Below, piece after piece: positions 223 through 10,982 of a stretch of DNA of 11,888 nucleotides (the first letter of the stretch is position 1; the number at the start of each line of letters is the position of its first letter). The stretch spans positions 1 to 11,888 of the forward strand of contig JAAFHI010000036.1 in assembly GCA_013298335.1 (NCBI GenBank), read 5' to 3'. Position numbers and translations under genes: made by a program. The notes under the pieces are model-generated. The model ran no database searches. It saw only the letters and a program-made list of their open reading frames with translations, and was not told the DNA's origin. This DNA is from Actinomycetota bacterium. GTDB taxonomy: Bacteria; Acidobacteriota; Blastocatellia; Chloracidobacteriales; Chloracidobacteriaceae.

Positions 223-2223
223 TCAATGGATTTCCCGCAGCGCCGCGGCCATGTCCTCGGCGCTCGGGAAGCGGTCAGCCGGGTTTTTGGCGAGCGCGCG
301 GGCGATGACGGTCACGAGCGCGTCGGGTACGTCCGGGCGGAGGTCGCGCACCGGCGACGGCGTCGCATGCAGAATCGAATCAATCACCTGATAGTAGGAT
401 TTCCCGTCGAACGGCAGTCGCCCGGTGGTCATTTCATACAACACGACCCCGAGCGAGAAAATGTCGCTCGCCGGTGACGCCGCCGAATCGTTGGCGGCCT
501 GTTCGGGAGACATGTAGGTGACCGTCCCGACCAGAATCCCCGGCTCGGTGATGTCGGAGTAGGGCGGCAGGCTCTCGTCGGATTCGTTGTTGCGCCGGGC
601 GAACACGTCGAACTTCGCCAGTCCAAAATCCAGAATTTTCACGTTTCCGTGCTTGTCGATCATGAGGTTCGACGATTTCACGTCGCGATGAACAACCCCG
701 GTCGCATGTGCTTCCGCGAGCGCCTGCGCCGCCTGCGCGCCGAGCCGGGTTATGTCGGCGATGGGGAAACGGCCTTCCTGACGCAGCCGCTGGCTGATCG
801 TCCGGCCCTTGAGATATTCCATCACGAGGTAGGGCACGTCGCCGATTTCGCCGATTTCATAGACGGTGGCGATGTTCGGATGATTCAGGCTCGACGCCGT
901 CCGGGCCTCGCGCAGAAACCGGCGGCGGGTTTCATCGTCGCCCGCGTGGCGCGACTTCAAGAGTTTGATCGCGACCTTGCGGCCCAGTTCGGTGTCGCGG
1001 GCGAGAAAAACGTCGCCCATCCCGCCGCCGCCGATGCGTTCCTGAAGCTCGAACCGCCCGATTTTTTTCGGGACCTTCCGCATGCTCTCCTGGGTCATCC
1101 GCCGGGTGATGTCGCCCGACAGGCGCATCGGGTCGAGCGCCGGATCGGTGGCCGGGATTTCAATCTCCTCGACCGGTATTTCCGCCACGAGATATTCATC
1201 GGTCGTCGTCGTGCTCCGCGTCGGACGGGTCGCGACCGCCAGAAACCGGTGCGAAAACAGCCGGTTCATCCCGTTTTCCTCGATGACGTAGCCCGCGCGC
1301 TTCAAGTCCTCAAGGACGTGGGTCTGTTCCTTCGCGGGCTGCTGCCCGTCGGCCACCGCCCGGCAGACGGCGTGCTCGACTTCCGAAAAATGCTCCCAGA
1401 GATAGCGGAAATGCCCGCGGACCTCGTCGTCGAACAGCGCCTCGATAGCCGCCCGGTCGAGCGCGCCGTCCTGCAACTGTTCGAAGTAGTTCGAGCAGGC
1501 GATCTGGATGTAGAACGGGAAATTCCCGCCGAACCGGCGGATTTCGTCAACGTAGGCTTCGAGCGGAATCCCGGCCAGCGCCGACGGACGGATAATCAGT
1601 TCCCGTACTTCGTCGTTGGTGAACTGCCGCAGATAGACGTTGGTGAAAATGTTGAAAAACGGCGAATCGGCGATCTGGTCGGTGTGGCAGAGTTCCTGGA
1701 GGTCGCGCCCCGACGACGTGATGTAGGCCACTTCATAATTGTTCGCGAGCGACCGCAGGAAGGCGAAAAAGTCCGCCGAAAACGCCCGGTTCGACGTGAT
1801 GATGTCAAACTCGTCGAAAATGGCGATCAGCTTCCGGTGCGCCCCCCGCAGAAATTCGAGAATCGCCCGGACGCCGTCGAAGCTCCCCTGCGCTGCGGGC
1901 GCGCCCTCGCCCACCACCCGGCGGATCTCCGTCAGCCACTCTTCCAGAAATCCGTTCAGCGAGAGATTGCGCCGCTGCTGCAAGTCAAAGAAAACAAAGA
2001 CGTATTCCTCCGGACGCGCGAGGTGCTGGCGCTGGATTTCAGCCGTCAGAATGTAGTTGAGCAGCGACGACTTGCCGATCCGCCGGTCGCCGACCACGGA
2101 AATCGACTGCGGACGCGACGCCCCGATGCGCGAAAAAATCCGCGCCACTTCCTTGCGGCGTCCGAAGAATTGCGTGCAGTCGCGGATGGCGACGCGGTTC
2201 AGATAGGGATTGACGATGGGCAT
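223..2223 (-). CDS. AAA-type ATPase fused to Ser/Thr protein kinase
   Basis: A 666-residue fusion. The N-terminal half is a P-loop ATPase of the AAA/ORC-like kind: the entry motif FFGRRKE is at 19-25, Walker A GDRRIGKSS at 45-53 and Walker B LIAIFDEFD at 132-140. A winged-helix-like stretch follows at about 280-335 and a Thr/Glu/Pro-rich linker at about 332-388. The C-terminal half (389-666) is a complete Hanks-type kinase: Gly-rich loop about 398-405, Lys420, Glu439, HRD 512-514, DFG 532-534 and SPE 572-574. All catalytic residues are present, so it should be active. No membrane segment is seen. I chose the start at MPIVNP; the 21 upstream codons only translate the heptamer array next to the gene (ILNSQF-type residues). 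The order, ATPase first and kinase last, is the reverse of many bacterial kinase-STAND fusions. Substrate and trigger are unknown. The ATPase may sense a ligand or oligomerise to control the kinase; this is inference. Confidence 0.9.
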   Translation of the reverse strand: MPIVNPYLNRVAIRDCTQFFGRRKEVARIFSRIGASRPQSISVVGDRRIGKSSLLNYILTAEIQRQHLARPEEYVFVFFDLQQRRNLSLNGFLEEWLTEIRRVVGEGAPAAQGSFDGVRAILEFLRGAHRKLIAIFDEFDIITSNRAFSADFFAFLRSLANNYEVAYITSSGRDLQELCHTDQIADSPFFNIFTNVYLRQFTNDEVRELIIRPSALAGIPLEAYVDEIRRFGGNFPFYIQIACSNYFEQLQDGALDRAAIEALFDDEVRGHFRYLWEHFSEVEHAVCRAVADGQQPAKEQTHVLEDLKRAGYVIEENGMNRLFSHRFLAVATRPTRSTTTTDEYLVAEIPVEEIEIPATDPALDPMRLSGDITRRMTQESMRKVPKKIGRFELQERIGGGGMGDVFLARDTELGRKVAIKLLKSRHAGDDETRRRFLREARTASSLNHPNIATVYEIGEIGDVPYLVMEYLKGRTISQRLRQEGRFPIADITRLGAQAAQALAEAHATGVVHRDVKSSNLMIDKHGNVKILDFGLAKFDVFARRNNESDESLPPYSDITEPGILVGTVTYMSPEQAANDSAASPASDIFSLGVVLYEMTTGRLPFDGKSYYQVIDSILHATPSPVRDLRPDVPDALVTVIARALAKNPADRFPSAEDMAAALREIH

Positions 2224-2230
2224 GACGGGA

Positions 2231-2265
2231 AAATTCAGAATTGAGAATTGAGAATTGAGAATTTT
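2231..2265. repeat. Heptamer tandem array, 5 units, in leader of ATPase-kinase gene
   Basis: Five 7-base units: three exact GAATTGA copies flanked by AAATTCA and GAATTTT. The array ends 7 bases upstream of the chosen ATG at 2223, taking the place where a Shine-Dalgarno sequence would lie; none is evident. If the longer reading frame from 2286 were used, the array would encode Leu-Asn-Ser-Gln-Phe-type repeats, which is why I prefer the downstream start. Confidence 0.85.
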
Positions 2266-2337
2266 CGGAAATCCCAAAATCTCCAAAAGGCGTCCGAAGT
2301 TCCGGATACGCGATAAACCGAATGAATGGAATGAATT

Positions 2338-2373: not shown

Positions 2374-3504
2374 TTACTCCGCCGTGGGAAGCCGTCTCCA
2401 AAGATACACCCCCGCGACGAAAATGAGGATGACGCCAATCAGCGCCCAGGCGCCGAGCAGCTTTCCGGTGAGCCCGATCCAGATGCCGCCAGTCAGAATC
2501 GCGCCCAGGATCAGGCCGAGTCGGGTGGCGACGTACCCCGTCTGGGCGAGCGTCTGCTGCTGCTCCTTTTTCTGTGCTTCCGCATAGACCGCCGCCGCCA
2601 CCGGATTGAGTCCGGCTTTCAGGCGTTTCATCTTTTCCCCAAGGAAAAAACCGCCCGCCGCCGTGACGACGACGCCCCCGAGGGCCAGTCCGAGACGGAC
2701 CTTCAACGACAGCGCATCCATCCGGATCGCCATTAGAACCAACGCGATGCCGAGACCGAGCACGCCCGCCGGAATGAGCACCGCCGGGTTTTTATCGATT
2801 TGCCCCGCCACGCCCTGCCGGACATTTTCGCGATAGAGCCGGCTGTCGGGCGAGAGCTTGAGGGCCAGCGAGTAGAGTTCGACCGCCTCGGCCTTGCGTC
2901 CCTGCCGTTCGACCGCGACGGCGAGATCGTTCAGAAGGTAGGCTGCGTCGGGTTCGATTTCGAGGGCGCGCCGGAAGTGCGTCTCGGCCTCGGCGTTCCG
3001 CTGGCGGTTGAGCGCGACACTGCCGAGCAGATAAAACGACGAACTCCACTCCGGCGCGAGTTCCGCCAGATGCCGCCCGACCCGCTCGGCCTCGTCGAAC
3101 GCCTTTGCCTCGATGAGCGCCCAGCCCAGGACGTAGTGCGTTTTCGGCTCGTGGGGGTCGTAGCGAATCGCCTCCTTCGCTGCGTCGATGGCCGCCGGAA
3201 TATCACCGAGCTGGCGCAGGCAGACCGACCGCAGCCGGTAACCCCATTCGTCCTCCGGGCTGTAGCGGATGCCCTTTTCGGCGTAGTCGAGCGCCTCGCG
3301 CAGTCCACCCGCCGAGGTGTCGGACTTGCTTAAAAGGTAGGCGTAAAGGCAATAGGCGTAGTGGTTTGTCGGATTGAGCCGGATGGCCTCGTGGGCGGCC
3401 TTGCGCGCCTCGTACCAGCGCTTGACCTCGGCCAGATGCTCGGCCTGGCGGCAGAGCTGGCGATACTTCTGCGCGAAATCGTCGGTCGGCGCGGCGTGTT
3501 CCAT
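2374..3504 (-). CDS. TPR protein with C-terminal membrane region (copy 1)
   Basis: 376 residues. The N-terminal two thirds are tetratricopeptide helices, with clear units at about 23-45, 86-117, 120-151, 154-185 and 188-219 (patterns such as AIDAAKEAIRYDP and AEAETHFRRALEIEP). The C-terminal third has about four hydrophobic segments (about 241-261, 270-289, 327-345 and 350-369). Between the second and third is the motif LNPVAAAVYAEAQ (299-311), also found at the same position in copy 2. There is no signal peptide, so the TPR part probably faces the cytoplasm. The start aligns with copy 2 (LAEVKRWYEAR against LADLKRWVEAR), although the Shine-Dalgarno is weak. It follows hybrid kinase copy 1 with a 371-base gap. 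The likely role is a membrane-tethered scaffold or partner for that kinase; this is inferred only from the repeated gene pairing. Confidence 0.85.
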   Translation of the reverse strand: MEHAAPTDDFAQKYRQLCRQAEHLAEVKRWYEARKAAHEAIRLNPTNHYAYCLYAYLLSKSDTSAGGLREALDYAEKGIRYSPEDEWGYRLRSVCLRQLGDIPAAIDAAKEAIRYDPHEPKTHYVLGWALIEAKAFDEAERVGRHLAELAPEWSSSFYLLGSVALNRQRNAEAETHFRRALEIEPDAAYLLNDLAVAVERQGRKAEAVELYSLALKLSPDSRLYRENVRQGVAGQIDKNPAVLIPAGVLGLGIALVLMAIRMDALSLKVRLGLALGGVVVTAAGGFFLGEKMKRLKAGLNPVAAAVYAEAQKKEQQQTLAQTGYVATRLGLILGAILTGGIWIGLTGKLLGAWALIGVILIFVAGVYLWRRLPTAE

Positions 3505-3534
3505 GGTCCGGGTCCGTCGTTGAAATCGGGTAAC

Positions 3535-3686
3535 CGTTCAGAGTCCCCCGCTTGAGCGGGGAAAAGTGAGGGTACTTCGAAATTGCCAAAGAAAAATCGG
3601 GTTTTGTCGAAGTCTTTTCGGAGAAAGACGCGGAGAAACCGAGGGATTCCCGAAATTCTCCCCGCTCAAGCGGGGGACTCTGAACG
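3535..3686. repeat. 152-bp element with perfect 28-bp terminal inverted repeats
   Basis: The arms at 3535-3562 and 3659-3686 are exact reverse complements over 28 bases, with a 96-base interior showing no coding signal. Each arm also holds its own palindrome: CCCCGCT, a 2-base centre, then AGCGGGG. This architecture fits a REP/BIME-like pair or a tiny MITE-like non-autonomous element. No target-site duplication is obvious. It lies 31 bases upstream of the TPR copy 1 start, in the gap that separates kinase from TPR gene here but is absent in copy 2. The gap on either side (3505-3534 and 3687-3875) holds only an A/T-rich stretch near 3781-3790 and a loose 7-bp hairpin (3836-3860). Confidence 0.8.
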
Positions 3687-3835
3687 CGCCGAAAGATACA
3701 CGTTCGCGACCGAACTGAGAATCGGTCCGTGAACCCGTCCCGGTTTGGGGCGGTGTTCAACGATGACGGCGGGTCGGCCATATATATTAAGGATCGCGCG
3801 CGCGTACGATGAACGTTTCTTCAAAGTTCCGGGAA

Positions 3836-3860
3836 TCGAACCGGGGAGGTTCGGGTTCGA
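3836..3860. other. 7-bp inverted repeat downstream of hybrid kinase copy 1
   Basis: TCGAACC (3836-3842) and GGTTCGA (3854-3860) pair across an 11-base loop, 15 bases beyond the kinase stop codon. No T-run follows on the minus strand, so calling it a terminator is not justified. It could be an mRNA 3' stem. Confidence 0.35.
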
Positions 3861-3875
3861 CCGGGCGCCGCTTTT

Positions 3876-5735
3876 TCAGGTCACGGGATCCTTCATCAGC
3901 GATTCGAGGATTTCGAACAGGTCGTTTCTGCCGAACGGTTTGGGAAGAAACCGCGAGCCGACGGGCAGGTCCTTGACGCTTTCATGCGCGCCGAGCGATC
4001 CGCTGGTGAGGATGAACCGGCATTCGGGGCGCAGTTCGGCGAGCAGGCGGATGACCACGTCGCCGTACATCAGGGGCATGGCCTTGTCCGCCACGACGAG
4101 TTGAATCGGCCCGGCGTACTGCGAGGCGATGCGGATGGCCTCGGCCCCGTCCTTCGCCGTCAGCACGGTGAAGCCCTTGTCTTCGAGCATGGCCGCGATG
4201 AGGCGGCGCACTTCGGTTTCGTCCTCGGCGACGAGGGCGGTTTTCGTCGGAATGTCACCGCGGTTGCGTCCGCCGCCCGGCGTGGCGATGGAGTCCCCGT
4301 TCGAAATCGGCAGGAAGATGCGAAAAACGGTGCCCCGTCCGGGTTCGGACTCGACTTCGACGAAACCGCCGCGTTCGGAGACGAACCCGAGCGTCGTCGC
4401 GAGCCCGAGCCCGGTCCCCTGGCCCTCCGGTTTGGTCGTGAAGAACGGCTCGAAGATGCGCCGCCGGATTTCGGCGCTCATGCCGATTCCCGCGTCGGCG
4501 ACCGAAATGAAGGCGAATTCGCCGGGAATGAATGCGCGGTGGTCCAGAACGACGACTTTCGGGTCCTTGAAATCGGCTTCCAGCACCATGCGGCGACCGG
4601 TTGACATCGTCAGCAGGCCGCCGTCGGGCATGGCGTCGCGGGCGTTGACGATGAGGTTGAGAAGAACCTGGGAACAGATGCTGGGGTCGATGTCGGTCAT
4701 GAGGGGACCGTCTTCGAGTTTCATCTCGAACTGAATCCTGGCGGGCAGAATCCGCTCCACCAGCACGCCGGTTTCCTTCACGAGCAGATTCAGGTCCTGC
4801 GAACTCGGCTCGCCCGCGTTGCCCCGGCTGACGACCATCAGCCGCCGGACGAGTTCCGCGCCGCGGGCCACGGCGGTCAGGATCGCCGTTTTCCGGCGTT
4901 CGAGGCTTTCAGGACGCGCGATGGCGGTGTCGAGCAGTTCGGCGTTGCCCTGAATCACCGTCAGGAGATTGTTGAAATTGTGGGCGACGCCCGCCGTCAA
5001 CTGCCCGATGGCTTCCATTTTCTGGACGTGGCGCAGGCGGTCCTCCGCCTGGCGGCGCTCGGTCATGTCGCGCCGGACCGCCACCCAGTGCGTCAGGCGT
5101 CCCGTCTGGTCGGCAATCGGCTGAACCGTCAGTTCGGCCCAGAATTCCGTCCCGTTCTTGCGGTAGTTGAGAATCTCGACCGCGCAGGGCTTTCCGTCCA
5201 TCAGGGCTCGGCGAATCGTGGCCACGGTTTCCGGCGAGGTCCCCGGTCCGCGCAGCAGTTCGCTGATCGGCTGCCCGAGGGCCTCGGCCCGGGTAAAGCC
5301 GGTCAGGCGCTCGAAGGCGTCGTTGACGTAGACAATCGGCGGCCCTTCCGGCTCGATCCAGGCGGCTTCCGTAATCACGATGATGTCGTTGGCGTTGGCG
5401 ATGGTGGATTCGAGCAGCCGCAGGCGGTTGTCGTCCAGATCGTGGTCACTCTCCGGCGCTCCAAACGCCCCCGCGCCATAGCCCGCGAAGGCTTCGGTGA
5501 GAAACGCTCCCGCGCCGGCGAGCCGGTTGTCGTCGTCGTGTTTTGAAGACTCCCCGTCGAAGACGTGCCCAAGTGCGGCGTGGTGCAGCCGGCAGAGCGC
5601 CGGAATCGGCAGGCCCGCCTGCTGGAGCCGAACCCCGAGGTCGTGGGGTGTTTCCGAGGGGAAACCGGTCAGGTAATCCCGCAACCGGGCGGAGTATTCC
5701 TGTTCAAATGGTTCGAGTGTTCCGGACGTATCCAT
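3876..5735 (-). CDS. PAS hybrid sensor histidine kinase with receiver (copy 1)
   Basis: 619 residues from the chosen ATG. Order: an N-terminal helical region resembling RsbU_N (about 8-90); one LOV-like PAS domain (about 105-228, NYRKNGTEFWAEL at 190-202); a HisKA helix with phosphoacceptor His252 in AHNFNNLL; a HATPase domain (N box LLNLIVNARDAMPDGG, DAGIG 414-418, GTGLGL 440-445); and a receiver (about 498-615; Asp505, phosphoacceptor Asp550, Thr577, Lys599). No membrane segment is seen, so it is cytoplasmic. The start is set by alignment with copy 2 (EQEYSARLRDYL against EWEYGVVLRDYL). The frame is open back to 5951, and ATGs at 5846 and 5951 are possible; the extension encodes a Pro/Ser/Leu 12-residue repeat and is probably leader. 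The His is followed by Asn rather than Glu/Asp. Signal and target are unknown. Phosphate can pass to its own receiver, but no Hpt or DNA-binding partner is in the window. Confidence 0.9.
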   Translation of the reverse strand: MDTSGTLEPFEQEYSARLRDYLTGFPSETPHDLGVRLQQAGLPIPALCRLHHAALGHVFDGESSKHDDDNRLAGAGAFLTEAFAGYGAGAFGAPESDHDLDDNRLRLLESTIANANDIIVITEAAWIEPEGPPIVYVNDAFERLTGFTRAEALGQPISELLRGPGTSPETVATIRRALMDGKPCAVEILNYRKNGTEFWAELTVQPIADQTGRLTHWVAVRRDMTERRQAEDRLRHVQKMEAIGQLTAGVAHNFNNLLTVIQGNAELLDTAIARPESLERRKTAILTAVARGAELVRRLMVVSRGNAGEPSSQDLNLLVKETGVLVERILPARIQFEMKLEDGPLMTDIDPSICSQVLLNLIVNARDAMPDGGLLTMSTGRRMVLEADFKDPKVVVLDHRAFIPGEFAFISVADAGIGMSAEIRRRIFEPFFTTKPEGQGTGLGLATTLGFVSERGGFVEVESEPGRGTVFRIFLPISNGDSIATPGGGRNRGDIPTKTALVAEDETEVRRLIAAMLEDKGFTVLTAKDGAEAIRIASQYAGPIQLVVADKAMPLMYGDVVIRLLAELRPECRFILTSGSLGAHESVKDLPVGSRFLPKPFGRNDLFEILESLMKDPVT

Positions 5736-5770
5736 TGGAGTCCCATCTTTGAAAAAATGTGGGTCCGCGG

Positions 5771-5842
5771 GCAAGTCCGTTGCTGAGAGACTTGGGGGAG
5801 GAAGGGGCAAGTCCGGTGTCGAGAGACTTGGAGGGGAAAAAG
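5771..5842. repeat. Two 36-bp direct repeats, each a hairpin, in kinase copy 1 leader
   Basis: Units 5771-5806 and 5807-5842 match at about 28 of 36 positions. Each contains CAAGTC, 11 bases, then GACTTG, so the leader RNA can form two similar 6-bp hairpins in tandem. The unit length is a multiple of three and the minus frame stays open, giving a PSLS-x-x-DLP repeat if translated. The region lies 36-107 bases upstream of the preferred start. Confidence 0.65.
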
Positions 5843-5852
5843 GCATTCCCAA

Positions 5853-5876
5853 CTTACCTGAATCCCAAACGGTAAG
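5853..5876. promoter_or_regulatory. Dyad CTTACC-n12-GGTAAG upstream of kinase copy 1
   Basis: CTTACC (5853-5858) and GGTAAG (5871-5876) are exact inverted repeats. The left half lies within TACCTGAA (5855-5862), an 8-mer also found upstream of kinase copy 2 (9655-9662), again inside a TACC...GGTA dyad. It could be a shared operator. No regulator is identified. Confidence 0.35.
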
Positions 5877-5895
5877 ATAGATGAAAGAAGTCGGG

Positions 5896-6137
5896 TGAAC
5901 GGTGAAAACGTCTTGTAACTGTTCAGCCGTCGCCGTTTGCCCTGCCCTCAAGGACAGGGCTACTCAAAAACAAGCCTCGTGAACGAGACTCAGACGAGGG
6001 GCCCGATTCTTCAGCCCCGGTATGGTTTTTGAAAAATTGTTTCGGAAATAAATGGTTGGTTTCATTCCGGAAAGGCGCGGATGCGCCTACGTTTCAACCG
6101 GAAGCAGGGCGACGACCGGGCTGAACGGTGAAAACGT
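5896..6137. repeat. 16-base exact direct repeat pair flanking the palindrome cluster
   Basis: TGAACGGTGAAAACGT occurs at 5896-5911 and again at 6122-6137, both preceded by a CGGG-type sequence. The two copies bracket the palindromes at 5939-6088. This could be a footprint of duplication or insertion of the 226-base unit between them, or two binding sites for one protein. Confidence 0.6.
5939..6088. repeat. Cluster of four small palindromes in the 440-bp gap
   Basis: Palindromes lie at 5939-5960 (GCCCTG...CAGGGC with an inner CCT/AGG), 5976-5987 (CTCGT-GA-ACGAG), 5998-6018 (GGGGC...GCCCC) and 6073-6088 (AGGCGC-GGAT-GCGCCT). They occupy the gap between TPR copy 2 and kinase copy 1 (5736-6175). 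That gap has no convincing gene; it also holds the leader repeats of kinase copy 1 and a 16-base direct repeat. The density suggests REP-like dispersed sequences or remnants of them. Confidence 0.5.
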
Positions 6138-6156
6138 TTTAATGTAGGAAAAACGT
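6134..6156 (-). terminator. Weak candidate terminator after TPR copy 2
   Basis: On the minus strand ACGTTTT (6156-6150) and AAAACGT (6140-6134) form a 7-bp stem with a 9-base loop, followed by only three T. It sits 20 bases past the TPR copy 2 stop. It is A/T-rich and weak, so it may not terminate efficiently. Confidence 0.3.
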
Positions 6157-6175
6157 CGACCGGGTGCGTGCTGCG

Positions 6176-7324
6176 TCATTCCGCCTGATTCCTGTCCGCG
6201 CGCCGCCTGATGAACCACAGTGCCCCCAGCAGGACGAGTACGACCGGGGCGAGGCCGACCAGGCCGAGCAATACGTCATTCCGAAACGTGACCGCGTAAT
6301 AGAGCCAGCCCACGCACACCGCACCGCCGATGCCGAGGGCCACCCATTCCGGATCGAGTTTGTAGGCGGAAAGCAGCTCGTAATCCATCTGTTCCTGCGC
6401 CATCCGGTAGACGATCCCGGCGACCGGGTTGAGGCGGGAGGCGAGGTAGCGGCGCAGGGCGAGCATGCCGCCGAATGCCGCGAGTCCGACCAGAAAAGTC
6501 ACGATTCGAATGGTTTTGAGGTGTGGCTGGAACATCCACGGCACTTTGAATGAAGCGTACAGCGGAATGAGCGCCCCGAGCAGGACAAGATACACACCGA
6601 TCATGGCCGGATGGCGGTAGACCGAGGCGACGGATACCGCCTCCAGGTTTTCCTGAAAGAACTGTTCGTTCGGGTCCTGTTTCAGGGCGAGCGTGAACAG
6701 TTCGAGCGATTCCTGACGCCGTCCCAGCTTCTCGAGGGCAAACGCGAGGTAGGTAATCAGTCCCGGATCTTCCGGGGCCAGCGCCAGCGCTGTCCGGTAC
6801 AGGCGTTCGGCGTCCTCGAAGCGGCCTTCATGCAGGGCGATGCGTCCCTGAAGCTCGCTGGCGACCGTGTCGAGCGGGTCCCGTTTCCTGACCTCTTCAG
6901 CGGCTTCTTTGGCCCCGTTCAGGTCCTCCGCGAGCAGCAGCGCTTCGGCCAGCACGTGGAATCCCCGCCGGTCATCGGGGTCGCGGGCGAGGGTCTGGCG
7001 GGCGGTTTCGAGGGCGCGGGCCGGTTCGTCGAGCATCCGGTGGCAGAAGCTTTGAAGGGCATATCCCTGTGCCGCTTCCGGATCGAGGGCGGTGACCCGC
7101 CGGGCGCTGTCGAGCGCCGTGCGGAGGTCGCCGGGCGAGGTATTGTGCGTTAACAGGACTTCCGCCTTGAGGGCATGGGCTTCGGTCTGTTCCGGATCGA
7201 GCCGAATCGCCTCTTCAATCAGTTGCCGGGCTTCGACCCAGCGTTTCAGGTCGGCCAGGCGGCGGGCCCGGTGGCACAGTTCATCGTAGGGATGGTCGGT
7301 TTCGGTGTGTGGCGGATGGTTCAT
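6176..7324 (-). CDS. TPR protein with C-terminal membrane region (copy 2)
   Basis: 382 residues, a clear paralogue of the TPR protein at 2374-3504. TPR helices run from about 12 to 225, with units ending in RLDP, ALDP, ARDP, KRDP, ALAP and KQDP. About four hydrophobic segments follow (238-258, 270-290, 327-346 and 350-372). The linker motif LNPVAGIVYRMAQ is at 298-310. It ends in a basic, charged tail (RRRADRNQAE). The ATG at 7324-7322 overlaps the TGA of the upstream hybrid kinase by one base (TGATG), which predicts translational coupling and roughly matched synthesis. No signal peptide is seen; the TPR domain is probably cytoplasmic. The likely role is partner, anchor or regulator of that kinase, inferred from coupling and from the duplicated gene order. 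No enzymatic motif was seen. Confidence 0.88.
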   Translation of the reverse strand: MNHPPHTETDHPYDELCHRARRLADLKRWVEARQLIEEAIRLDPEQTEAHALKAEVLLTHNTSPGDLRTALDSARRVTALDPEAAQGYALQSFCHRMLDEPARALETARQTLARDPDDRRGFHVLAEALLLAEDLNGAKEAAEEVRKRDPLDTVASELQGRIALHEGRFEDAERLYRTALALAPEDPGLITYLAFALEKLGRRQESLELFTLALKQDPNEQFFQENLEAVSVASVYRHPAMIGVYLVLLGALIPLYASFKVPWMFQPHLKTIRIVTFLVGLAAFGGMLALRRYLASRLNPVAGIVYRMAQEQMDYELLSAYKLDPEWVALGIGGAVCVGWLYYAVTFRNDVLLGLVGLAPVVLVLLGALWFIRRRADRNQAE

Positions 7325-9567
7325 CAGGTTCTTTCGTCAGCGGGAGAAACCCCGGTCGTATCCGGGGTGGCCGTTTCTCCGGTCGCGCCGCGCATCAGGT
7401 TCTGGATGGCGTCAATCAGCTCGTTTCTGCCGAACGGTTTCTGGAGAAACCGGGCGTGCGGCGAGAGCGCGCTCATCTCGCCCTCGGTGACGAGCGAGCC
7501 GCTGGTGAGAATAAACCGGCATTCCGGGCGCAGTCGGGCGAGGAGGCGGATGACCGAATCGCCATAGAGGCTCGGCATCGCCATGTCGGTCACGACCAGT
7601 TGAATCGGGCCGCGATACTCGCCCGCGACGTGGATCGCCTCGGCCCCGTCCCGCGCCGTCAGGACGGTGAAGCCCTTTTCTTCGAGAATGGCGGCGATGA
7701 GGCCGCATACGTCGGGATTGTCCTCGGCGACCAGCGCGGTCAGGGCCGGAAAGACGCCGCTGTGGAAGGTCCGCTCGACCGGCGGGTCGGTGGCCGGGCG
7801 GGAAGCGGGCAGACCGAGCCGGAACACCGTGCCGCGCCCCGGTTCGGACTCGACCTCGATGCAGCCGCCGCGTTCGGAGACAAAGCCGAGCGACGTGGCG
7901 AGGCCCAGTCCGGTGCCCTTGCCGCTGCCTTTGGTGGTGAAAAACGGCTCGAAGATGCGCTGCCGGGTTTCCTCGCTCATCCCGATCCCCGTGTCACTGA
8001 CCGTGACGCACACAAACATTCCGGCCCGGGGCGGGTGGCTGGACAGAAAAAAGACGGACGGTCGTTCGAAGTCGGCCTCGGTCATGGCGCGGAGGCCGGT
8101 TGAAATGGTCAGTTCTCCGCCGTCGGGCATGGCGTCGCGGGCGTTGACGATCAGATTCAGCAGCGATTGCGAGAATTCCCCGGCGTCGAGGTCGCTCCAG
8201 AGCGGTTCATCCGCGAGGTTCAGCGAGAACCCGATGTTGGCCGGCAGGATGCGTTCGATCATCTGACCGGTTTCGGTCACCAGCGGGTTGACCTCCCGGG
8301 GAAACGAATTGCCCACGCTGCCCTGGCTGATGACCATCAGTTGCCGGACGAGTTCCGCGCCGTGCTGCGTCGCCGTGAGAATCGACGTCTTTTTCCGGGC
8401 GAGTGGTTCGTCCAGTCCGGTCGCGCGCCCGATCAGTTCCGCGTTCCCCTGAATGACGGTGAGCAGGTTGTTGAAGTTGTGGGCGATGCCGGACGTCAAC
8501 TGTCCGACGACCTCCATTTTCTGTGCCTGCCGAAAACGTTCCTGTTCCCGCCGCCGCTCCGTCACGTCGCGCTGGATCGCCAGCCAGTGCGTGACCCAGC
8601 CGGTCGGGTCGGCAATCGGCTGGATTGCCAGTTCCGCCCAGAATTCGGTGCCGTCCTTGCGGTAGTTGAGGATTTCGACCGTGACCGGTTCCCAGTCGTG
8701 GAGCGCCTGACGGATGCGGGCGCGGGTTTCGGGCGAGGTTCCGGGGCCCTGAAGGATGCGCGGCGTCTTTCCGACCGCCTCCGTCCGCGAATAGCCGGTG
8801 ATCCGTTCGAAGGCGTCGTTGACATAGACGATGCGCGGTCCCGGCGGGTCGTTCCGACCGGCTTCGGTAATCAGCACGATGTCGCTTGCGTTGGCGATGG
8901 CCGATTCGAGCAGCCGCAGCCGCTCTTCGTGCGCCTTGCGCTCGGTAATGTCCGAGACAACGACGAGGCGGCCCGCGCGACCGGCGAAGACGAACTTGCG
9001 ACTGGTGATTTCAACGTCAATCAGGCGTCCGTCCTTCAGCCGGTGCCGCCATTCGCCCCGCGCCGGCTGGTCGCCGTGCCGGTTGGCGATCTGCGCCCGC
9101 ACCAGTGCCCGGTCGGACTCGGGGCGGACGTCGAGAATCGTGCGCGCCAGAAACTCCTCGCGGGTGAAACCGTACTTCTCGACCGCCGCCCGGTTGACGT
9201 TCAGGAAACGGAGCGATTCTTCTTCATAAATCCACATCGGCAGCGGATTGTTTTCGAAGATCTGGCGGAAAGTTTCTTCGTGAAGCCGGTCCGGGGCGGC
9301 GGAGACCGGCGCGGCGTCGTAGGCCGTCAGCGCCTCGACCAGAAATGCTCCCGCGCGGTGGAAAAACAGCCCCGGCGTTCCGGTTTCGGCACTCACCAGG
9401 GCAAGTGCGCGGTAGTGCAGGCGGCAGAGGGCGGAGGGCGGCAGTCCCTCGCGCCGCAGCCGGGCCCCCAGATCGCGAGGTGTCGCCGGGCGCGGCATCG
9501 TCAGGTAGTCGCGCAGGACCACTCCATACTCCCATTCAAGCGATTGGAAATCCGGGGAAAGGGGCAT
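7324..9567 (-). CDS. Two-PAS hybrid sensor histidine kinase with receiver (copy 2)
   Basis: 747 residues. Order: RsbU_N-like N-terminal region (about 8-90, YLTMPRPATPRDLGARLRRE then ALCRLHYRAL); PAS1 (about 96-210, ending VVVSDITERK); LOV-like PAS2 (about 218-340, GKTPRILQGPGT and NYRKDGTEFWAEL); HisKA with His363 in AHNFNNLL; HATPase (N box 469-484, DTGIG 525-529, GTGLGL 551-556); receiver (about 609-727; phosphoacceptor Asp661 in VVTDMAMP, Thr688, Lys710). Soluble, with no membrane helix. From the ATG, GGAG lies about 5 bases upstream, a reasonable Shine-Dalgarno. It closely matches copy 1 along its length except for the extra PAS1. Its stop overlaps the start of TPR copy 2. A terminator upstream (9683-9709) implies its own promoter in the 115-base leader. 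Input signal and output partner are not visible. Confidence 0.92.
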   Translation of the reverse strand: MPLSPDFQSLEWEYGVVLRDYLTMPRPATPRDLGARLRREGLPPSALCRLHYRALALVSAETGTPGLFFHRAGAFLVEALTAYDAAPVSAAPDRLHEETFRQIFENNPLPMWIYEEESLRFLNVNRAAVEKYGFTREEFLARTILDVRPESDRALVRAQIANRHGDQPARGEWRHRLKDGRLIDVEITSRKFVFAGRAGRLVVVSDITERKAHEERLRLLESAIANASDIVLITEAGRNDPPGPRIVYVNDAFERITGYSRTEAVGKTPRILQGPGTSPETRARIRQALHDWEPVTVEILNYRKDGTEFWAELAIQPIADPTGWVTHWLAIQRDVTERRREQERFRQAQKMEVVGQLTSGIAHNFNNLLTVIQGNAELIGRATGLDEPLARKKTSILTATQHGAELVRQLMVISQGSVGNSFPREVNPLVTETGQMIERILPANIGFSLNLADEPLWSDLDAGEFSQSLLNLIVNARDAMPDGGELTISTGLRAMTEADFERPSVFFLSSHPPRAGMFVCVTVSDTGIGMSEETRQRIFEPFFTTKGSGKGTGLGLATSLGFVSERGGCIEVESEPGRGTVFRLGLPASRPATDPPVERTFHSGVFPALTALVAEDNPDVCGLIAAILEEKGFTVLTARDGAEAIHVAGEYRGPIQLVVTDMAMPSLYGDSVIRLLARLRPECRFILTSGSLVTEGEMSALSPHARFLQKPFGRNELIDAIQNLMRGATGETATPDTTGVSPADERT

Positions 9568-9722: not shown

Positions 9723-10982
9723 TCAGTAACCGCTGGTTTTAATGTAACCCAGCAGTTCGTCGTACATGCCGCCTTCGTTGGCAAACATCGCGTAGTTCTT
9801 CGCCGTGTCGAACCAGGCCCGGACGCTTGGCCGCACGTCGCGCAGCGCCCGCTTGAAATCCTCGGTCGTAAGTTGCCGCACCTGCCCGGTTTCGAGCGAT
9901 TCCTCAAGCGCGAACTCCGCCGCCGACTCGCAGAGGTGGGCGAGGTCCGCGCCGGAAAACTCGTTCGTTTTTCCGGCAAGCCACGCCGTATCCACCTCGC
10001 CCGCCGGGCGGCCTTCGAGGTTCATCCGCAGAATCGCCTCGCGCGCGGGCGCGTCGGGGGGCAGCACGAGCACCATCCGGTCGAGGCGACCGGGACGGCG
10101 CAGGGCGGCGTCCACGTCCCACGGGTGATTGGTCGCGGCGAGCACGAACACGCCCTCGTTGTTGCCGTCGAGACCGTCGAGTTCGGCGAGCAGCGAAACG
10201 ACCGTGTTGCGGCCCGCGTTGTTGCGCATCTGGCTGCGCTTGTGGCCGAGGGCGTCGATTTCGTCGAAAAACAGTACGCAGGGCGAATTGCGCCGGGCGG
10301 TTTCAAAGAGTTCGTGGAGTTTGCGCTCGCTCTCCCCGATGTACATGTCCATCACGTCGGAAAGACCCACCGAAAAGAACCGCGCGCCGAGTTCGCCCGC
10401 CAATGCCTTGGCGATAAAGGTTTTACCGCATCCCGGCGGACCGTAGAGGAGCAGGCCGCCGCGCAGCGACTTGCCGTAGGCCTTGCGGATTTCGGGATTT
10501 CGAATCGGTCCGAGAAAGGCGACGTTGAGCCGTTTCTTGACGGTTTCCATGCCGCCGACGTCAGCCAGCGTGACCTGCGGGCGTTCGGCGTCGTCATCAT
10601 CGTAGGCCGCGTCGGTGCCGACCACGCGCAGTTTGGGCCGGTCGCCATCCTTTCCGGGCGGCGGTGGCGGCAGAAACGAGGCCACCGGACGGTCCTGGTT
10701 CGAGGTCGCGGTCACGGTCGGCGCACCGCCGAGCGCCGTGAGAAGCTGCCGCCAGCCCCCGGCGCGCGGGTCGCCGGTCGCGTCGCCCGCCGTGGCCGCG
10801 CCGCGCAGGGCGTCGAGGTTGGCCGGCTCCTTCGCCAGAACGTGGGCGAAATGCACCAGCGCCGCCGGGGCGTCGCCGCCGTCGAGCAGCAGTTTCCCGA
10901 GATGCAGCCGCAGCGGCAGGTCGTCGGGCGTGTTTTCGAGGGCGGCGGAAAGGGCCGCGATCACGGTTGAATCCAATGACAT
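9723..10982 (-). CDS. AAA+ ATPase (SpoVK/CDC48/Vps4-like) with TPR-like N-terminus
   Basis: 419 residues from the chosen ATG. A short helical N-terminal region (about 1-70, LPLRLHLGKLLLDGGDAPAA then FAHVLAKEPANLDAL) looks like one to two TPR units. A flexible linker with a six-Pro run (about 104-110) and an Asp-rich stretch (about 128-132) follows. The AAA+ domain (about 135-385) has Walker A GPPGCGKT 181-188, pore loop MYIGESE 213-219, Walker B VLFFDE 236-241, sensor-1 Asn285 and arginine-finger region RRPGRLDR 295-302, then the helical lid with GADLAHL. All ATPase residues are intact, so it is probably a hexameric remodelling or unfolding motor; its substrate is unknown. No protease domain is present. 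The frame is open to 11102, but that start would run into the divergent gene's start. MSLDST is the better choice, although its Shine-Dalgarno is weak. Confidence 0.88.
   Translation of the reverse strand: MSLDSTVIAALSAALENTPDDLPLRLHLGKLLLDGGDAPAALVHFAHVLAKEPANLDALRGAATAGDATGDPRAGGWRQLLTALGGAPTVTATSNQDRPVASFLPPPPPGKDGDRPKLRVVGTDAAYDDDDAERPQVTLADVGGMETVKKRLNVAFLGPIRNPEIRKAYGKSLRGGLLLYGPPGCGKTFIAKALAGELGARFFSVGLSDVMDMYIGESERKLHELFETARRNSPCVLFFDEIDALGHKRSQMRNNAGRNTVVSLLAELDGLDGNNEGVFVLAATNHPWDVDAALRRPGRLDRMVLVLPPDAPAREAILRMNLEGRPAGEVDTAWLAGKTNEFSGADLAHLCESAAEFALEESLETGQVRQLTTEDFKRALRDVRPSVRAWFDTAKNYAMFANEGGMYDELLGYIKTSGY

Follow-up and report, generated by a model that had tools for sequence, protein, structure and literature searches.

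Gene organization of the locus

The 11,888-nucleotide stretch analysed here (the window; contig JAAFHI010000036.1) comes from a 5.1-Mb metagenome-assembled genome (MAG) of the family Chloracidobacteriaceae in the Acidobacteriota and encodes on its minus strand two hybrid histidine kinases, K1 and K2, each followed by a tetratricopeptide repeat (TPR) protein with hydrophobic segments, TPR1 and TPR2. In order of transcription, this strand carries the genes of a TPR-AAA ATPase, K1, TPR1, K2, TPR2, and a fusion of an nSTAND2 NTPase with a Ser/Thr kinase; a DUF1990 gene lies on the plus strand. The kinase-then-TPR order, which a sequence-only reading of this DNA had noticed in two copies, is borne out by the positions of K1 (7324..9567; 747 residues), TPR1 (6176..7324; 382 residues), K2 (3876..5735; 619 residues, the mechanical open reading frame [ORF] reaching 5951), and TPR2 (2374..3504; 376 residues). 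The TGATG overlap reported for one copy was also found, between the stop codon of K1 and the start codon of TPR1 (7326-7322, minus strand). The remaining gaps are 440 bp between TPR1 and K2 and 371 bp between K2 and TPR2, the latter containing a dispersed inverted-repeat element.

Both pairs are paralogous, as had been claimed. By BLASTP, K1 and K2 share 62% identity over 520 columns and, in a separate segment at the N terminus, 33% over 248, and TPR1 and TPR2 share 32% over 390 columns (E value of 2e-49), similarities that at the level of sequence are far beyond chance.

Domains and classification of the kinases

K1 and K2 match the Pfam models HisKA, HATPase_c, and Response_reg above their cut-offs and retain the H-box histidine, the ATPase motifs, and the receiver aspartate and lysine. 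The phospho-acceptor histidine lies in an AHNFNN motif in both proteins (His363 of K1, 8479..8481; His252 of K2, 4980..4982, both minus strand), and the receiver aspartate of K1 is Asp661 in VVTDMAMP (7585..7587, minus strand). Their sequences identify them as hybrid histidine kinases of the general kind, with intact catalytic motifs. Both end in an intact receiver without an output domain, and no gene for a histidine phosphotransfer (HPt) protein or a response regulator was recognised in the window. The common domain order proposed earlier was confirmed for the HNFNN H-box, the HATPase domain, and the receiver; upstream of these the two proteins differ, since K1 has two PAS domains and K2 only one, and both the LOV-like and the RsbU_N-like assignments had to be qualified.

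In the predicted structure of K1, a four-helix domain (residues 1-95; 9283..9567, minus strand) precedes the signalling enzyme. The model of this domain aligns best to KaiA, while its sequence stays below the curated Pfam cut-off for RsbU_N (PF08673; 13.6 versus 25.5 bits) and the K2 N terminus gave no match. The RsbU_N model matched 2 of 16 kinases, the better at an E value of 0.0053 and 17.3 bits, also below the cut-off, and had no match at E ≤ 1 in the genome of the window. Domains of the KaiA/RsbU type are described, in the available portions of two papers, as serving dimerisation and partner binding (PMC12143880, PMC11372060). An RsbU-type kinase linked to RsbT or to a stressosome was considered and set aside, as neither an rsbT nor a stressosome gene was found among the seven window proteins scanned; the eight PF13581 matches in the genome are all on contigs other than that of the window.

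The second PAS domain of K1 (approximately residues 219-340; 8548..8913, minus strand) aligns along its length with LOV domains. Nevertheless, the LOV site GRNCRFLQ reads GKTPRILQ in K1 and GQPISELLR in K2, so that both proteins differ from LOV blue-light histidine kinases in lacking the photoactive cysteine and the neighbouring asparagine. Blue-light sensing was rejected because this cysteine is missing.

The best NCBIfam matches of K1 and K2 were PAS hybrid kinases of the CckA and PRK13557 types (NF010076, NF046020), with which they share the order PAS-HisKA-HATPase-receiver. K1 and K2 nonetheless scored 360.9 and 350.6 bits with PRK13557 (cut-off, 631), 248.4 and 287.2 bits with NF046020 (cut-off, 1000), and 197.8 and 238.9 bits with NF046026 (cut-off, 1000), and CckA membership was rejected. 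The two kinases differ from these types by the HNFNN H-box and, according to the model, by the KaiA/RsbU-like N-terminal domain. Membership in LvrB (NF047466) was rejected as well (105.3 and 123.2 bits; cut-off, 500). LvrA and LvrB of Leptospira are likewise two adjacent soluble hybrid proteins without a DNA-binding output; they differ in domain order, and the part of the publication available to us describes no TPR-membrane partner (PMC5863495). The kinases are of a common kind, and the narrowly distributed TPR/membrane partner is the unusual, new part of the locus.

A TPR domain next to a variable membrane part

TPR1 and TPR2 both scored above cut-off with several Pfam TPR models, and these scores, together with the alpha-solenoid predicted for TPR1, establish them as TPR proteins. 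The AlphaFold model of TPR1 comprises six TPRs (helices in residues 12-216) and a capping helix (221-234), with a predicted local distance difference test score mostly of 80 to 95, and the 50 matches listed in a fold search with this model included TPR and other helical-repeat proteins. The C-terminal part, modelled at low confidence, consists of five helices, namely the four hydrophobic segments and one helix at residues 300-320 next to the LNPVA motif. TPR2, which has close relatives elsewhere, shows the same layout.

A search with both proteins scored 7,995 candidates and recovered at least 120 with E ≤ 0.001, of which six (TPR1, TPR2, and P0003 to P0006) align as full-length members of the family. 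The LNPVAxxVY motif is conserved in all six. It occupies residues 298-306 of TPR1 (LNPVAGIVY; 6407..6433, minus strand), between the second and third hydrophobic segments, and residues 299-307 of TPR2 (LNPVAAAVY; 2584..2610, minus strand), in agreement with the common layout described previously. Four hydrophobic segments were found by hydropathy in TPR1, TPR2, P0003, and P0004, and three above the threshold in P0005 and P0006. TPR1 and TPR2 have no such segment before residue 240, and the LNPVA loop carries a net positive charge in five of the six proteins, being neutral in TPR1. Together with the TPR1 model, these features support the reading of a membrane-anchored TPR protein.

The two halves of TPR2 are unequally conserved. 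Its TPR half is 85% identical to that of the relatives on contigs of 8.7 and 6.6 kb, whereas the membrane half is 57% and 46% identical, respectively. The K2 core is 83% identical between the window and the 8.7-kb contig, which suggests that kinase and TPR half are under similar constraint and that the anchor is free of it. A distant, near-full-length homologue was found in a genome of another class of the phylum (genome G185, locus L160, 9261-10349; E value of 1.8e-40), with 24% identity by profile alignment and without the LNPVA motif.

Recurrence of the pairing on other contigs

For the kinases, the best 120 matches among 7,997 scored candidates were listed, and K1 forms with P0121 to P0131 a group of 12 proteins, the K-clade. 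Kinase and TPR matches were paired when their contigs had an identical size in base pairs, which was taken to mean the same contig; each protein is listed with one contig. Besides the window contig, which carries K1, K2, TPR1, and TPR2, kinases of the K1 and K2 types occur together with a TPR protein of the TPR2 type on contigs of 81,511 and 8,659 bp, and a third contig (6,633 bp) carries a K1 type and a TPR2 type among the matches listed. K-clade kinases without a TPR-family match were found on contigs of 159,210, 19,302, 4,091, 2,783, and 2,431 bp, and the converse on one contig of 3,621 bp. When only contigs above 5 kb are considered, window included, co-location is seen for all 4 contigs that carry a TPR-family protein and for 4 of the 6 that carry a K-clade kinase. 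As a control, the 112 other TPR matches and the 109 other kinase matches had no contig size in common. In the lineages of two of the co-location contigs, the K1 core differs from that of the window by 32%.

Rarity of adjacency elsewhere had been put forward as the finding that would reduce the pairing to a local duplication. The two genes instead share three further contigs, although this is evidence of contig sharing rather than of gene order or direct adjacency. The pairing recurs within a narrow clade, and the co-location, as far as sequence can tell, favours a functional link between kinase and TPR protein.

Outside this clade, the collection scans yielded no relative of the TPR proteins, and none of the best 80 kinase loci exceeded 41% identity. 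At E ≤ 1e-185, K-clade kinases were restricted to the genome of the window among the matches listed for 162 genomes of the class (at most 6 candidates scored in each) and for 396 genomes of the phylum (at most 2 in each). In 15 genomes with up to 73 candidates scored, the best kinase match outside the genome of the window had an E value of 3.8e-174. The matches listed in 146 relatives, with at most 13 candidates scored per genome, included no full-length TPR-family protein, and the 396 phylum genomes gave only the distant G185 match among those listed (at most 4 scored in each). Within the order of G185, a search of 18 further genomes gave no such homologue at E ≤ 1e-15. Among the papers listed by literature searches, the titles and abstract beginnings mention nothing resembling the combination of a hybrid kinase with a TPR-membrane protein.

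Duplication history

In the kinase-core tree, the K1 and K2 types form separate groups (support of 77 and 100, respectively), implying that they split before the lineages of the window and of the 8.7-kb contig diverged. K1 and K2 are separated by a tree distance of 0.76, compared with 0.63 and 0.23 to their respective orthologues on the 8.7-kb contig. The distance between TPR1 and TPR2 reaches 3.43, against 0.45 between TPR2 and its orthologue on the same contig. The nearest relative, on the 81.5-kb contig, has cores 92% (K1) and 95% (K2) identical to those of the window, with TPR2 as the only TPR protein listed, and its K1 is devoid of the C-terminal tail that overlaps TPR1 in the window.

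The tandem duplication of a whole module, as first proposed, is weakened: the members of both pairs are paralogous, but the divergence of the TPR proteins far exceeds that of the kinases and TPR1 is missing from the matches listed elsewhere. A single duplication event would require a strong acceleration of TPR1; otherwise the TPR split is older. The sequences thus suggest either a very fast divergence of TPR1 or a TPR split older than that of the kinases. More widely, the unit may consist of K1, K2, and TPR2, with TPR1 as a peculiarity of the window lineage.

Neighbouring genes and repeats

The TPR-AAA ATPase (9723-10982, minus strand; start inferred) combines a short TPR with an AAA+ ATPase and belongs to a widespread family with at least 7,998 matches. 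Its inclusion in the unit is unsupported, because the 44,181-bp contig of its nearest relative (91% identical) appears neither among the TPR matches nor among the best 120 kinases, and because the best of the matches listed in 57 relatives is to the AAA domain, at 45% identity. The nSTAND2-Ser/Thr kinase fusion, encoded immediately after TPR2 (ORF at 223-2286, minus strand), has a kinase half that matches the PADLOC models PD-T4-6 and mad6, which may reflect only the common kinase fold. K1, K2, TPR1, and TPR2 had no PADLOC match at E ≤ 1e-5, and a defence system was rejected. No RNA element reached the gathering threshold.

The element between K2 and TPR2 (3535..3686) is REPIN/MITE-like, with 38-nt arms matching at 89%. 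Its arm core has 78 matches in the MAG with at most two mismatches, 39 on each strand and many in inverted pairs approximately 36 to 124 bp apart (start to start), compared with none for the reversed-pattern control. Since this element is found throughout the MAG, the window contig very likely belongs to it; the GC content also fits, making a contaminant contig unlikely. A 36-nt tandem repeat lies just upstream of K2 (5769-5840), and a 22-nt repeat occurs in the gap between TPR1 and K2 (5893-5914/6119-6140).

Possible function of the unit and alternative explanations

The locus could encode an orphan hybrid-kinase signalling unit. Soluble K1 and K2 would dimerise and bind partners, probably through the KaiA/RsbU-like four-helix domain predicted at the N terminus, and their PAS domains would act as sensors, though not of light. 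TPR2, and in the window lineage also TPR1, would be a membrane protein exposing its TPR domain to the cytosol on a variable membrane anchor, and would bind the kinase and tether or regulate it at the inner membrane. Phosphate would then pass to an HPt protein or response regulator encoded elsewhere, as neither was recognised among the window genes. We put the chance that the TPR protein keeps a cytosolic kinase at the membrane, or regulates it there, at slightly below even. The co-location on three contigs with its negative control, the TGATG overlap, the joint conservation of TPR half and kinase, and the intact motifs support this reading, as do the hydropathy pattern of the TPR proteins, the TPR1 model, and the alignment of the N-terminal domain model to KaiA.

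Several observations weigh against it. The G185 homologue is flanked by a cytochrome c maturation (ccm) operon on one side and by an OmpA/AAA cluster on the other; none of the ORFs called in 19.9 kb of this locus matched K1 or K2, and no histidine kinase was present among the 10 ORFs scanned by Pfam. Kinases approximately 40 to 44% identical were examined at five loci, four of them in genomes of the family to which the window belongs and one, a third kinase, in the genome of the window itself; no TPR-family gene lies beside them in the sequence covered. Moreover, no TPR1 orthologue was listed, even on the 81.5-kb contig, which together with the large TPR1-TPR2 distance weakens a simple duplication of the pair. 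The unpaired homologues and the large intergenic gaps of the second pair would be expected if a kinase had been duplicated locally beside an unrelated TPR protein of envelope assembly, the pairing reflecting common neighbourhood and ancestry without joint function. We consider this explanation rather unlikely, as it fits poorly with the TGATG coupling and with co-location on three further contigs, two of them from the lineages with 32% different K1 cores.

The TPR protein might also act on phosphotransfer rather than on location, binding the receiver and blocking or changing the flow of phosphate as Rap-type proteins do in Bacillus phosphorelays. The intact terminal receivers without output domain, the lack of a recognised HPt or response-regulator gene in the window, and a TPR2 TPR half about as conserved as the kinase core would agree with such action; nevertheless, Rap proteins are soluble, while the TPR proteins of the window have four hydrophobic segments, and we regard this as improbable. 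Still less probable is that the two kinases work with each other, as a cascade or as a heterodimer, in the manner of other tandem hybrid kinases, with the TPR proteins incidental. The window and the contigs of 81,511 and 8,659 bp do carry both kinase types, and phosphotransfer from one hybrid protein to its neighbour has a precedent in the Lvr proteins of Leptospira, according to the part of that study available (PMC5863495), but the 6,633-bp contig carries a K1 type and a TPR protein with no K2 type listed.

For the membrane-held kinase, the nearest functional parallel would be PknG-GlnX-GlnH, a comparison of working mode rather than of membership. In the accessible portion of its description, a TPR domain is likewise proposed to couple a soluble kinase with a membrane protein of the same operon, but that TPR sits in the kinase itself, a Ser/Thr kinase, with the membrane protein as a second polypeptide (PMC8546545). 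In the present locus, TPR and membrane segments share one polypeptide, and the kinase is of the hybrid histidine type. The contig sharing seen in a few further metagenomic lineages is a hint of a membrane-tethered signalling unit not described before. A broader proposal, to which we give a low probability, is an undescribed class of membrane-tethered phosphorelay in which a dedicated TPR membrane protein recruits soluble hybrid kinases through the KaiA/RsbU-like domain, the TPR partner having been duplicated and rapidly diverged in one lineage to give one tether per kinase. Many orphan hybrid kinases are without a known partner. A small contig-sharing family whose TPR half is constrained and whose anchor is free to change would give a handle on how soluble kinases are placed or controlled, and it might extend partner domains of the KaiA/RsbU type to the hybrid kinases of the Acidobacteriota.
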